Shown here: positions 5,813 to 9,613 of the stretch, in pieces
Position numbering within the stretch: position 1 is the first letter of the stretch
Layout of the letters: each line of letters starts with the position of its first letter
Assembly: GCA_938045315.1 (NCBI GenBank)
Contig: CALINM010000028.1
Location: 1 to 9,613 of the forward strand
Reading direction: 5' to 3'
DNA from: an uncultured bacterium
Lineage (GTDB): Bacteria > CALINM01
Length of the DNA: 9,613 nt
The notes under the pieces: model-generated
Seen by the model: the letters and a program-made list of their open reading frames with translations, nothing else
What the model was told of the DNA's origin: nothing
Database searches by the model: none
Made by a program: the position numbers and the translations under genes

Positions 5813-6258
5813 ATTCCGAGTCTACTCGCCATTTCACTAATTGACGTGCCCGAAGAAGCATCCAGTGATGGCTTTATTATCCTCTCCTCAAATCTTTCTT
5901 TAGACCATATTTCAATCCTTTTTAACATCCCTGCAAAAATTACGTCCTTCAAAATCCCAGCATATTCTCGATGAGTGGTTGGCAAAATAATCCTGCCTAA
6001 TTTATCAACCCCACATTCCATAGCACCAGAAAAAAATATTCTCATAAAGTGCCTGTCTTCTGGCTTAATAATTTCATAGTTGGATGCCTTTTCTTCTATT
6101 TGCTTCCATTCTTGATAAGGGTATGCATAAAGGCAACCATCCATTGTTGTAATTATAAGTCTCTCATCATACTTAACCCTCAGTATCTCCCTGAATTTAG
6201 CGGGGATACTTATTCTACCCTTTTCATCAATGGTATGTTCATACCTTCCTAAGAACAA
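5809..6258 (-). CDS. mraZ: Transcriptional regulator MraZ of the division and cell wall cluster
   Basis: MraZ is a nucleoid-associated, ring-forming DNA-binding protein that in studied bacteria represses its own dcw operon. The 149 residues hold two tandem SpoVT/AbrB-like domains. The first, about residues 5-47, carries DEKGRISIP at 11-19. The second, about 79-122, carries DKLGRIILP at 85-93. This duplicated D-x-K/L-G-R signature defines the family. The N-terminus FLGRYEHTIDEKGR matches the usual MraZ start, which places initiation at a TTG codon (6258-6256). A strong GGTGG ribosome binding site lies 6 nt upstream. It is first in the gene cluster, is preceded by a good sigma-70 promoter, and its likely own binding repeats lie between promoter and start. 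The C-terminal tail (about 130-149) is Ser-rich and looks disordered. Confidence 0.96.
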   Translation of the reverse strand: MFLGRYEHTIDEKGRISIPAKFREILRVKYDERLIITTMDGCLYAYPYQEWKQIEEKASNYEIIKPEDRHFMRIFFSGAMECGVDKLGRIILPTTHREYAGILKDVIFAGMLKRIEIWSKERFEERIIKPSLDASSGTSISEMASRLGI

Positions 6259-6269
6259 TTTTTACCACC
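6259..6269 (-). promoter_or_regulatory. Ribosome binding site of mraZ, fixing a TTG start
   Basis: GGTGG at 6269-6265 lies 6 nt before the TTG codon of mraZ. Its spacing and the family N-terminus agree, so TTG is very probably the true start. The same bases form the last of the four TGG repeats of the putative MraZ operator, so binding site and translation signal share sequence. Confidence 0.75.
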
Positions 6270-6300
6270 TTTTTCCATTTTATACCACTTTTTACCAATA
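6261..6300 (-). promoter_or_regulatory. Putative MraZ operator: four TGG-centred direct repeats with exact 10-bp period
   Basis: Read on the minus strand, 6300-6261 divides into four decamers: TATTGGTAAA, AAGTGGTATA, AAATGGAAAA and AGGTGGTAAA. TGG is at the same position in each (6297, 6287, 6277, 6267). Known MraZ sites are direct repeats with this helical-turn spacing: TGGGN separated by 5 nt in E. coli, and AAAGTG[T/G] type in Mollicutes. AAAGTGG occurs exactly once here. The array begins immediately after the -10 box and runs through the ribosome binding site, a position suited to autorepression. Period and position are seen directly; MraZ binding is inferred. Confidence 0.75.
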
Positions 6301-6377: not shown

Positions 6378-7799
6378 ATGAAAAGAAATCCTATGGCAAA
6401 GATGGGACTAAAAACAAAACTAATACTTGCTATGTCTTCTATTTTCATTCTCTTTTCCCTCGTTCTTTTTCTAATAAGTCAAAATGCTCAGAAAAGATTG
6501 ATAAAAGAAATGGAAGAAAATATTGACGAGCTAACCAAAGCATTTCAAGTAAGTGTTGAAAAATTGACCAGTGAGGAGCAAAAAAATCCTGAGATGCTGA
6601 AAGAACTAATAATGAAACTCAAAAAAAAGGGCATTAATGAGATATCTATACTTTCTGAAAGCAGAGAGATAATAGCTAGTACTAATCCTAAGAAAATAGG
6701 ACATGTAGCCAGAAGCACTAAAGATACCGACTTTTTAATTAAAGCTGAACTGGGTGTAAAATCCAAGAAAGAATACACAAAAACTATAAACGTACCAATA
6801 ATAATTGGTGATGAGAACTATGGATATATAAATATAGTTATGCACATGGAAAATTTAACGGGTATTCAAAAAAGAAATTTTTACTTAAGGCTTTTTAGCA
6901 CATTAATTATTTTTGTTTTTGGAACTTTAATCATAATATACCTTGCAGACAAATATACAAAACCAATACATATGATTGTGGATGCAACAAAAAGAGTTGC
7001 TAAAGGTGATTTGACACCTATTAATATTGATCTTTCTCTTGGACCTGAAATAAAAGAATTAGTAATCAACTTTAATCAAATGATAGAAAAATTGAAAGAA
7101 AGACAAATTTTAGAGAATAAAATTAAAGAAATGGAACATATATACCAGATTGGTCAACTTTCTTCTGCCATAGCCCATGAGATAAAAAATCCCCTAAACT
7201 TTATTAATTTAGCTATAGATCAAATAAAGGATGAATTAAAGCAAATAGATACAGAACCAAAAACCTTCGAGCTTATAGAAGCCATTGACACTGAAATATA
7301 TAGAATTAATAATATGTTGCATCATTTTCTTGAATACGGTAGACCTTTAAAATTAAATATGGAATATATTAATCTACTGGAACTCTTCAAGGATATTGAA
7401 AAAATAATTAAAACAAAGACCGATGATTTAAATATTAAAATTGTACTTAATATTGATGAAAATATTAATTTTCTTGGGGATAAAGAAAAATTAGTAGGTT
7501 GTTTTCTCAATCTCTTCTTGAATGCTATTGACTCTATAAAATGTGATGGTGTTATTATAATAACAGGGACAAAAAAAGACGATAAAATAGTAATAAACTT
7601 TAAAGATACAGGGCAAGGGATTCCTGAAATGATAGCTGATAAAATTTTTGAACCCTATTTTTCTTCGAAGGATACGGGTATGGGATTAGGGCTTGCATTT
7701 ACAAAAAAAATATTAATTGAGCATGGTGGAGATATCTGGTTAAACAAAAATTACAGCAATGGTGCAGAATTTATTATCATAATTCCTACAAACATATGA
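6378..7799 (+). CDS. Membrane sensor histidine kinase (periplasmic sensor, HAMP, HisKA, HATPase)
   Basis: This is a 473-residue inner-membrane kinase that should autophosphorylate on His and pass the phosphate to the regulator encoded next to it. Membrane segment 1 lies at about 14-34. A periplasmic domain of about 130 residues (35-166), possibly of the Cache/PAS-like type, follows, with its ligand unknown. Then come membrane segment 2 at about 168-190 and a HAMP linker at about 190-242 (TKPI...AKGDLTP). The HisKA dimerisation helix carries AHEIKNP with phospho-acceptor H267. The ATPase domain has the N-box N378/N382, DTGQG at 410-414, EPYFSS at 425-430 and GMGLGL at 434-439. All catalytic motifs are intact. 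The layout is that of kinases partnering NtrC-type regulators, such as ZraS/HydH. No clear ribosome binding site precedes ATG 6378; ATGs at 6393 and 6402 are alternatives. It overlaps the regulator gene as ATGA. Confidence 0.93.
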   Translation: MKRNPMAKMGLKTKLILAMSSIFILFSLVLFLISQNAQKRLIKEMEENIDELTKAFQVSVEKLTSEEQKNPEMLKELIMKLKKKGINEISILSESREIIASTNPKKIGHVARSTKDTDFLIKAELGVKSKKEYTKTINVPIIIGDENYGYINIVMHMENLTGIQKRNFYLRLFSTLIIFVFGTLIIIYLADKYTKPIHMIVDATKRVAKGDLTPINIDLSLGPEIKELVINFNQMIEKLKERQILENKIKEMEHIYQIGQLSSAIAHEIKNPLNFINLAIDQIKDELKQIDTEPKTFELIEAIDTEIYRINNMLHHFLEYGRPLKLNMEYINLLELFKDIEKIIKTKTDDLNIKIVLNIDENINFLGDKEKLVGCFLNLFLNAIDSIKCDGVIIITGTKKDDKIVINFKDTGQGIPEMIADKIFEPYFSSKDTGMGLGLAFTKKILIEHGGDIWLNKNYSNGAEFIIIIPTNI

Positions 7800-9178
7800 A
7801 TAAAATTCTAATCGTTGATGATGAAAAAAATCAAAGAGAATTAATAAGTTACATATTACAAAAGGAGTCTTACATTACCCAATCTTCAGCAACAGCTGAA
7901 GAAGCTCTAAATATTATTAAAAACGATGAAATTGATGTTCTCATAACAGATCTTAAATTACCTAAAATGGATGGTATACAACTTCTTAAAGAGGTATCAA
8001 ACATTTCGCCAGAAACATCTGTAATTATAATCACTGGTCATGGAAGCATCGATTCTGCAGTATATGCTATAAAAAATGGCGCTTTTGATTACATAACCAA
8101 ACCTTTAAAAAAAGAACAAATAATCTTAGTTACGAAAAAAGCAATTGAGAGAACTAATCTACTTAAGGAAAGAAAGTTTTTGGTTTCCCGAATATCATCA
8201 AAGGAAGCTTTTGAAGGAATGATAGGGGAACATCCGCTTTTTAAAAATGTTATAAAACTCATTTTAAAAATTGCTCCTTTAGATTCTACAGTTCTTATCA
8301 CCGGCGAGAGTGGCACAGGTAAGGAAATGGTTGCTAGAGCTATCCATAATATTAGCCCGAGAAAAAATCATCCCTTTATACCTGTTAATTGTGCAGCGCT
8401 TCCAGAAAATCTTATAGAAAGCGAACTTTTTGGATATTTACCCGGAGCTTTTACAGGTGCCATAGGAAGAAAAAAGGGCATTTTTGAGGCTGCATCGAAG
8501 GGGACAATTTTTCTTGACGAGATTTCAGAAATACCCATTCAAACTCAAGTAAAGCTATTAAGATTCTTGCAAAATAAAGAGATTTATCCCCTCGGTGCTA
8601 CAACTCCAACACATGTAGATGTTAGAATTATTGCAGCATCAAATGTTGATTTAGAAGAAAGAATCAAAAATGGTAAATTCAGGGCAGATTTATATTATAG
8701 ATTGAATATATTTTCTATTAAACTGCCAGCATTAAGAGAAAGAAGTAGTGATATCCCTTTACTTGCAAACTATTTTTTAGAAAAATACAGGAATTTAGCT
8801 CAAAGGGAAAATAAGTTTTATACATCTGGTGCAATTAAAAAGATGCTTGATTATGAATGGCCCGGTAATATAAGGGAACTCGAATCTGTGGTACAAAAAG
8901 CCATCATCCTTTCAGATGATGAAGAGATTAATGAAGATATAATATCAACCATACTAAAGATTGACAGCCCACTAACACATAAAAACATTGAAACTACAAA
9001 TAATGCTATAAAAGATAGAAAAACCCTGGAAGAAATAGAAAAAGACCTGATAATTGAAGCCCTGAATAAAACGGGATGGAATATGAGTAAAGCATCTAGA
9101 ATATTAGGAATTACCTATAGGACACTCCAATATAGGCTGGGAAAATATGGTATAAAAAAACCCAGTGATATACCATAA
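7796..9178 (+). CDS. Sigma-54-dependent response regulator, NtrC family (REC-AAA+-Fis HTH)
   Basis: This is a 460-residue enhancer-binding protein that, once phosphorylated, uses ATP to remodel sigma-54 RNA polymerase into an open complex. The receiver domain (1-120) has D8/D9, phospho-acceptor D52, T80 and K102. The AAA+ domain (about 142-370) has Walker A GESGTGKE at 170-177, the sigma-54-contacting GAFTGA loop at 217-222, Walker B GTIFLDE at 236-242, arginine-finger region RADLYYRLN at 297-305 and WPGNIREL at 355-362. A Fis-type helix-turn-helix occupies about 418-453. Domain order and length are standard for the family, and every key residue is present. Its ATG overlaps the kinase stop by 4 nt with no evident ribosome binding site, implying coupled translation. 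A matching sigma-54 promoter lies 77 bp downstream of its stop codon and is the obvious candidate target. Confidence 0.96.
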   Translation: MNKILIVDDEKNQRELISYILQKESYITQSSATAEEALNIIKNDEIDVLITDLKLPKMDGIQLLKEVSNISPETSVIIITGHGSIDSAVYAIKNGAFDYITKPLKKEQIILVTKKAIERTNLLKERKFLVSRISSKEAFEGMIGEHPLFKNVIKLILKIAPLDSTVLITGESGTGKEMVARAIHNISPRKNHPFIPVNCAALPENLIESELFGYLPGAFTGAIGRKKGIFEAASKGTIFLDEISEIPIQTQVKLLRFLQNKEIYPLGATTPTHVDVRIIAASNVDLEERIKNGKFRADLYYRLNIFSIKLPALRERSSDIPLLANYFLEKYRNLAQRENKFYTSGAIKKMLDYEWPGNIRELESVVQKAIILSDDEEINEDIISTILKIDSPLTHKNIETTNNAIKDRKTLEEIEKDLIIEALNKTGWNMSKASRILGITYRTLQYRLGKYGIKKPSDIP

Positions 9179-9218
9179 GGTATAAAATTTAACCTTTTGG
9201 AATACACATAAATTCACA
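9177..9218. promoter_or_regulatory. Candidate activator (enhancer) sites upstream of the sigma-54 promoter
   Basis: Two imperfect dyads lie in the gap after the regulator gene. AAGGT-N10-ACCTT spans 9177-9196 and GAAT-N8-ATTC spans 9200-9215. CACA also recurs at 9205 and 9215. They are about 65-105 bp upstream of the predicted start site, a normal distance for NtrC-family binding sites. The arms are short and the DNA is AT-rich, so chance is possible; the first dyad could also be a weak terminator remnant of the kinase-regulator transcript. Confidence 0.3.
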
Positions 9219-9254: not shown

Positions 9255-9272
9255 TTGGCACCAACATTGCTT
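9255..9272 (+). promoter_or_regulatory. Sigma-54 (-24/-12) promoter of the small exported protein gene
   Basis: TTGGCAC at 9255-9261, a 5-nt spacer, then TTGC at 9267-9270 followed by TT, is a full match to the sigma-54 consensus (TGGCAC-N5-TTGCW). The invariant GG (9257-9258) and GC (9269-9270) are at the required spacing. Transcription should start near 9282, giving a leader of about 29 nt that contains the strong ribosome binding site. It sits directly downstream of a sigma-54 activator gene, which strengthens the call. Dependence on that particular regulator is inferred. Confidence 0.88.
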
Positions 9273-9295
9273 TATTAAATTATGAAAATTAAATA

Positions 9296-9305
9296 GAGGA
9301 GGTGA
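9296..9305 (+). promoter_or_regulatory. Strong ribosome binding site selecting ATG 9311
   Basis: AGAGGAGGTG at 9295-9304 is close to a perfect anti-16S complement and lies 6 nt before ATG 9311. It includes an in-frame GTG (9302), which is part of the binding site and not the start. The strength contrasts with the near-absent sites before the kinase and regulator genes and suggests high expression of the small protein. Confidence 0.85.
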
Positions 9306-9310
9306 ATCAC

Positions 9311-9580
9311 ATGAAAAAAGCATTCACAGCAATACTTGCAGCTATGTTAATGGTAGTTTTCTCTAGCTTTGCTTTCGCAGCCGATCAGGCAAAACCTGCA
9401 GAGAAGAAAGAAGCAGCTCCAGCAGCAGCTCCAGCACCTGAAAAGAAAGAAGTAAAAGAAGAGAAAAAGGCAAAGAAAACCAAAAAAACTAAAAAAGCTG
9501 AGGAGAAAAAAGAAGTAAAAGAAGAGAAGAAAGAAGAGAAGAAAGAAGCAGCTCCAGCAGCAGCTCCAGCAAAAAAATAA
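9311..9580 (+). CDS. Small exported Ala/Lys/Glu/Pro-rich low-complexity protein, function unknown
   Basis: This is an 89-residue protein. Residues 1-23 form a classical signal peptide: MKK, a hydrophobic core, then AFA before a predicted cleavage ahead of A24-D25. The 66-residue mature part contains 23 Lys, 14 Glu, 17 Ala and 6 Pro and only six other residues, with no Cys, His, Trp, Tyr or Phe. It is strongly basic overall (net about +8) and probably unfolded or an extended single helix. It is built from repeats: EKKEAAPAAAPA at 31-42 and 76-87, and EKKEVKEEKK at 44-53 and 65-74, around a Lys/Thr-rich centre. Similar Lys/Ala-rich exported proteins occur in many bacteria without known function. 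Binding to an anionic envelope polymer is possible but is a guess. It is not recognisably the zinc-binding ZraP, since it has no metal ligands. The gene has its own sigma-54 promoter and a strong ribosome binding site. Confidence 0.85.
   Translation: MKKAFTAILAAMLMVVFSSFAFAADQAKPAEKKEAAPAAAPAPEKKEVKEEKKAKKTKKTKKAEEKKEVKEEKKEEKKEAAPAAAPAKK
9401..9571 (+). repeat. Perfect 36-nt direct repeat inside the small exported protein gene
   Basis: The 36 bases at 9401-9436 recur without a mismatch at 9536-9571, offset by 135 nt (45 codons, in frame). Both encode EKKEAAPAAAPA. A second, diverged pair encodes EKKEVKEEKK near 9440 and 9503. Identity at synonymous positions suggests recent duplication or gene conversion rather than only protein-level constraint, and makes the gene prone to length change by recombination. 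Confidence 0.9.
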
Positions 9581-9593
9581 CTTCTAAACACAT

Positions 9594-9613
9594 GGCACAA
9601 TTTAAATTGTGCC
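9594..9613 (+). terminator. Probable intrinsic terminator stem, truncated by window edge
   Basis: GGCACAATTTAAATTGTGCC is a perfect 20-bp palindrome 14 nt after the stop codon of the small exported protein. It can fold into an 8-bp stem with a TTAA loop. The position suits a terminator, but the T-tract expected after it would lie beyond the window, so a protein-binding palindrome is not excluded. Confidence 0.6.

Follow-up and report, generated by a model that had tools for sequence, protein, structure and literature searches.

A two-component gene pair followed by a predicted sigma-54 promoter and a gene for a Lys/Ala/Glu/Pro-rich, putatively exported protein, conserved in three genomes of a little-studied bacterial phylum

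The ZraS–ZraR/ZraP system of Enterobacteria, associated with zinc and envelope stress, joins a membrane kinase and an NtrC-type activator to a sigma-54 promoter and a small exported effector, ZraP, which is a periplasmic chaperone under ZraR (PMC4987338). Another described protein, Asr of the Escherichia coli acid shock response, is described as a disordered chaperone of the periplasm that helps to keep the outer membrane intact (PMC10746267). The locus studied here has the four components of the Zra system in common with it, and its product is, like Asr, a short, Lys/Ala/Pro-rich protein of low complexity with predicted export.

The window analyzed, 9,613 nt long, is contig C28 in full, from an assembly (G000) of 1.86 Mb in 244 contigs. 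The phylum, a small and little-studied bacterial lineage, was sampled by three genomes, all of one family: G000, G001 and G002. The features of the window are as follows.

6258–6297, minus strand: array of four 10-nt repeats of the TGG(T)AAAA type, resembling an MraZ operator, in the gap that separates mraZ from the divergent kinase gene (context, outside the circuit proper)
6378–7799, plus strand: membrane sensor histidine kinase of 473 aa, with HAMP, HisKA (His267) and HATPase_c from a domain scan
7796–9178, plus strand: NtrC/AtoC-type sigma-54 activator of 460 aa, with receiver (Asp52), AAA+ domain containing GAFTGA, and Fis-type HTH
9179–9194, no strand assigned: tentative activator site, an imperfect palindrome GGTATAAAATTTAACC, directly after the regulator stop codon
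9255–9271, plus strand: predicted -24/-12 sigma-54 promoter TTGGCACCAACATTGCT with GG-N10-GC spacing, from pattern search and conservation
9298–9304, plus strand: ribosome binding site GGAGGTG, invariant in the three genomes
9311–9580, plus strand: Lys/Ala/Glu/Pro protein, 89-aa precursor with signal peptide (9311–9379) and mature part of 66 aa, predicted to be exported
9594–9613, plus strand: terminator-like hairpin GGCACAATTTAAATTGTGCC at the contig end

The initial annotation had described an overlapping kinase and NtrC-family regulator pair, and this stands: the two ORFs (6378–7799 and 7796–9178) overlap by 4 nt (ATGA) and carry the expected domains. The kinase has an extracytoplasmic Cache/PAS-like domain flanked by two TM segments. 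The regulator scans as receiver, Sigma54_activat and HTH_8, with the GAFTGA loop read in the translation, and so combines the receiver, the sigma-54 AAA+ domain with GAFTGA and the Fis-type HTH of a type Ia NtrC-family sigma-54 activator. Identity to the window copy is 79% (G001) and 55% (G002) for the kinase and 84% and 65% for the regulator; outside the phylum, the best matches of the regulator reach at most about 47%. The best family matches are AtoS and AtoC, both under their equivalog cut-offs, and the Zra equivalogs are not reached either (kinase, 145.5 bits against 479 for ZraS; regulator, 369.4 bits against 760 for ZraR).

The sensor domain, 63% identical in G002, is matched by the Cache_WalK model in all three genomes at E up to 1 (best E 2.2e-4), the window copy scoring 14.2 bits against a cut-off of 27. 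A profile search placed it near Staphylococcus aureus WalK chains (E 0.016–0.05), and WalK chains also topped the fold search, with none under E 0.001; the likeness is weak because the query model of the domain is poor (pLDDT 54). Taken as predictions, these matches support a Cache/PAS-type sensor and not a WalK orthologue.

Between the regulator and the small gene, the proposed full-consensus -24/-12 promoter held up at 9255–9271: TTGGCACCAACATTGCT is the only TGGCAC-N5-TTGCW without mismatch in the window, and no second exact TTGGCAC-N5-TTGCW occurs anywhere in the assembly. When one mismatch was allowed, the whole assembly contained 27 sites versus 1 for the reversed control, and the genome therefore really uses -24/-12 elements. 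The genes downstream of such sites, named from their first residues, include glutamine synthetase, flagellar export and motor genes and anaerobic aromatic degradation, a conventional sigma-54 set, and rpoN is present in one copy in each of the three genomes. First-order simulation of the intergenic region gave TGGCAY-N5-TTGCW by chance in 8 (the window), 6 and 35 of 100,000 sequences for the three genomes. The boxes TGGCAY and TTGCT are invariant among them, while the spacer has diverged (CCAAC-A, TTTTG-T and TTTTT-T-like), and the element lies 39, 39 and 46 nt before the ATG. Transcription from it is predicted to start at about 9281–9282.

Elsewhere in the assembly, TTGGCAT-N5-TTGCT precedes genes that read as benzoyl-CoA reductase activase-like, oxocyclohexene-carbonyl-CoA hydrolase-like and tungsten aldehyde oxidoreductase-like (L008, L009 and L011); judged by these motifs, sigma-54 control of anaerobic aromatic degradation is possible in this phylum.

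A sequence resembling the palindrome at 9179–9194 is found in all three genomes, with different orientation and spacing in G002. Genome-wide, its pattern matched no more often than the reversed control, and therefore no regulon was called; as a binding site of the regulator this sequence is a tentative candidate.

Behind the promoter, the described ribosome binding site and gene for an exported 66-residue Lys/Glu/Ala/Pro protein were both found, with GGAGGTG followed by ATG 9311, a signal peptide ending in ..FAFA and a 66-aa mature part. A longer frame of 92 aa could begin at GTG 9302, but the conserved start codon is the ATG. The mature protein contains 23 Lys, 17 Ala, 14 Glu and 6 Pro (91% Lys/Ala/Glu/Pro, net charge +8), and across the three genomes the mature parts are 91–96% Lys/Glu/Ala/Pro with net charge +8 to +10. 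All lack His and Cys, as had been pointed out for the window copy, and metal buffering of the ZraP kind was rejected on that ground.

Among the three circuit proteins, the small protein is the best conserved, above regulator and kinase, with identities of 94% (G001) and 82% (G002) to the window copy that are to be read with the caveat that low complexity can inflate alignments. Between G000 and G001, its gene shows 22 synonymous versus 5 nonsynonymous codon differences, and third positions hold 25 of the 33 base changes; this pattern indicates a real gene constrained by purifying selection. The C-terminal PAKK is kept in all three genomes. Downstream, G001 and G002 have hairpins of different sequence in the corresponding position, so that a hairpin follows the small gene in every genome.

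The charges of the small protein follow a KKEE pattern with a period of four, produced by 12-nt AAAGAAGAGAAG units, and the G001 and G000 genes differ by one 12-nt block. Opposite charges are depleted at i,i+4 and enriched at i,i+2, which speaks against a salt-bridged single alpha-helix. In the AF2 model (mean pLDDT 59.7), helices are limited to the signal peptide and residues 45–79, the latter surrounded by low-confidence linkers and unstructured Pro-Ala ends; the model agrees with intrinsic disorder of the Asr kind without proving it, and the highly charged protein is probably unstructured. Its best NCBIfam match is Asr (NF033636), full length at 23.6 bits (E 6.9e-5) against a cut-off of 50 bits, and may reflect composition only. 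A Pfam match to SLC52 was rejected as compositional and below cut-off. No ZraP/Spy-type match was found in Pfam or NCBIfam, and no match in PHROGs or plasmids.

The initial annotation had suggested looking in relatives for the order of regulator, -24/-12 element and exported Lys/Ala-rich ORF. That order is present in all three genomes of the phylum, as part of a longer arrangement of mraZ, divergent kinase and regulator, -24/-12 element, ribosome binding site and small gene. Past the small gene the neighborhood differs: G001 has a convergent gene with a PAS-like region (a PAS-type sensor protein), G002 a convergent fur-like gene, and in G000 the contig ends. The small gene is thus probably monocistronic and travels with the regulator, and the survival of the promoter element, the coding constraint and the adjacency in three genomes speaks for the small protein being a genuine product, and probably an important one.

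On the other side, the minus strand of the window carries mraZ, rsmH, an ftsL-like gene, ftsI, murE and murF (names from reading the translations, not from family scans), and the plus-strand kinase gene stands head-to-head with this mraZ/dcw cluster in all three genomes. The four repeats at 6258–6297 are consecutive, immediately follow the mraZ -10 element and are kept in G001 and mostly in G002. The array is at the same time upstream of the kinase gene on the other strand, so MraZ might have an effect on the kinase. In G002, a second pair of sensor kinase and NtrC-type regulator genes lies near the module and convergent with it (L121 6314–9318, plus strand), beside type IV pilus assembly genes, and is PilS/PilR-like by position.

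We also looked for similar genes in other genomes. In the GC-rich genome G177, a profile search recovered an exported Lys/Ala-rich protein of 71 aa, and seven homologous loci of its family (L181–L186 and L189) encode exported Lys/Ala/Glu/Pro-rich proteins of 64–91 aa. In all seven, GGCAY-N5-TTG stands about 51–65 nt before the start codon, and in the alignment of the upstream regions the GGCAY and TTG blocks are the most strongly conserved, the rest having diverged. A -24/-12 score of at least 9 of 12 was reached in six of the seven loci versus 1.8% of random 130-nt windows there; the loci are related and are therefore not seven independent tests. Within 4 kb of them no activator gene was found, except for a GAFTGA-containing frame near one of the two G347 copies. 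Further upstream, the family has a conserved GAT-containing block that could be an activator site. Similarity to the present protein is slight outside composition and signal peptide, and we read these genes as convergence or a wider theme and not as homology.

Where a suitable ORF could be assigned, Lys-rich exported proteins of other phyla (profile search, L200–L209) lacked a -24/-12 element (best score 6–7 of 12), so composition alone does not imply sigma-54. Searching 336 genomes for TTGGCAY-N5-TTGCW followed by a ribosome binding site and ATGAAR gave, among the loci examined from other phyla, no Lys/Ala-rich low-complexity protein; some of these loci look like small exported proteins. Two of them, L144 and L160, have a good -24/-12 element before small exported Spy/ZraP-like proteins, probable true Zra-type effectors. 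Of 38 distant AtoC-like regulators followed by a sufficient length of DNA, four had a good -24/-12 element downstream and none a Lys/Ala-rich exported protein behind it.

Gene order, the promoter and its conservation, coding constraint and rpoN are read from the genomes themselves; direct activation, export, disorder and protection are our inference. The reading we prefer, to which we give about even credence, is a dedicated envelope-response two-component circuit driving one disordered, cationic periplasmic protectant or chaperone. The kinase would sense the extracytoplasmic state through its Cache/PAS-like domain and pass the phosphoryl group from His267 to Asp52 of the regulator, which would bind just 3' of its own gene, tentatively near 9179–9194. 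GAFTGA-driven opening of sigma-54 RNA polymerase at 9255–9271 would then start a transcript near 9282, comprising one gene and closed by the hairpin. The product would be Sec-exported, cleaved after Ala23, strongly cationic and largely disordered, with Pro-Ala ends on either side of a charged, helix-prone middle. In the periplasm it would most likely protect or chaperone envelope proteins or membranes as an abundant disordered protein, resembling Asr or ZraP in effect and not in descent, and perhaps also feed back on the kinase. This function is the least secure step of the mechanism; an Asr/ZraP-like disordered envelope protectant is the most likely inferred role.

With the same circuit, the protein could instead be a structural cationic polymer that binds peptidoglycan or outer-membrane phosphates, or is linked to them via its C-terminal lysines, and stiffens or spaces the envelope, which we consider unlikely. 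The guess of a charged polymer on envelope or peptidoglycan in the initial annotation retains weak circumstantial support from the WalK-like Cache sensor and the conserved mraZ/dcw linkage; the head-to-head arrangement in all three genomes, the weak resemblance to a cell-wall kinase, the net charge of +8 to +10 and the PAKK terminus all fit such a polymer, but the dcw linkage may be ancestral synteny only, Glu is nearly as frequent as Lys in the middle part, and there is neither a peptidoglycan-binding domain nor a lipobox cysteine. It is improbable that the protein serves mainly as feedback, binding the charged extracytoplasmic kinase domain and switching the kinase off. ZraP is reported to act so on ZraSR, according to a title cited in PMC4987338, and kinase, regulator and small gene are paired one to one; yet conservation is higher in the small protein than in the sensor domain (82% versus 63% to G002), the reverse of a simple coevolving pair, and no other target of the circuit was identified.

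The remaining alternative changes the wiring: the small gene could be sigma-54-driven by another activator, or also read by sigma-70, its place after the regulator being inherited synteny. The matches to the 9179–9194 pattern at control level make that site only a candidate, and in the GC-rich family similar genes with -24/-12-like elements do not adjoin an activator gene. Against this, the adjacency is kept in all three genomes even though in G001 and G002, the two relatives readable beyond the small gene, the neighborhood is different from there on, and we regard this alternative as quite improbable.

Returning to the protectant circuit, we tentatively suggest, with more doubt than confidence, that unrelated bacteria have independently, and more than once, placed exported disordered Lys/Ala/Glu/Pro polymers under sigma-54 control as an envelope strategy, with a dedicated kinase and regulator here and as stand-alone genes with conserved -24/-12-like elements in the GC-rich family (perhaps Anaeromyxobacteraceae). 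If true, such polymers would be a sigma-54 counterpart of Asr. The circuit would have one input and one output, its effector belonging to a class of short, charged low-complexity proteins easily lost in annotation, and the similar pairing in a second lineage suggests that sigma-54-controlled disordered envelope proteins are possibly an overlooked group. A published proposal holds that the bacterial exterior is the main object of sigma-54 control (PMC3162934), and the present circuit is in line with it.

Compared with known systems, the analogy to Zra with an unrelated effector, as first proposed, is supported as a likeness in logic. A small exported effector gene stands behind a predicted sigma-54 promoter next to a kinase–regulator pair, and an extracytoplasmic PAS/Cache-like sensor is expected in both systems. 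In contrast, none of the three circuit proteins passes the family tests for Zra or ZraP: the ZraS and ZraR cut-offs are far above the present scores, and the effector is not ZraP-like. The layouts also differ, the small gene being downstream and codirectional here, whereas zraP and zraSR are divergent in Salmonella, both with sigma-54 promoters (PMC4987338). The circuit would work like ZraSR–ZraP but is not a member. The AtoS–AtoC and NtrB–NtrC type supplies the best family matches, but no ato-like metabolic genes adjoin the pair. With WalK/YycG of Bacillota, the sensor shares weak matches to Cache_WalK and S. aureus WalK structures, and its own model is of low confidence; the partner of WalK is an OmpR-type regulator. 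Asr carries His and Gln repeats and answers to other regulators, and we know of no sigma-54 link; the present protein scores below the Asr cut-off and has a sigma-54-type promoter. A keyword search of a library of open-access papers found no description of such a circuit–effector pairing, which is weak evidence of absence. The type of circuit is itself known, and what is new is that a two-component system of the sigma-54 kind is joined to a low-complexity effector specific to this phylum.
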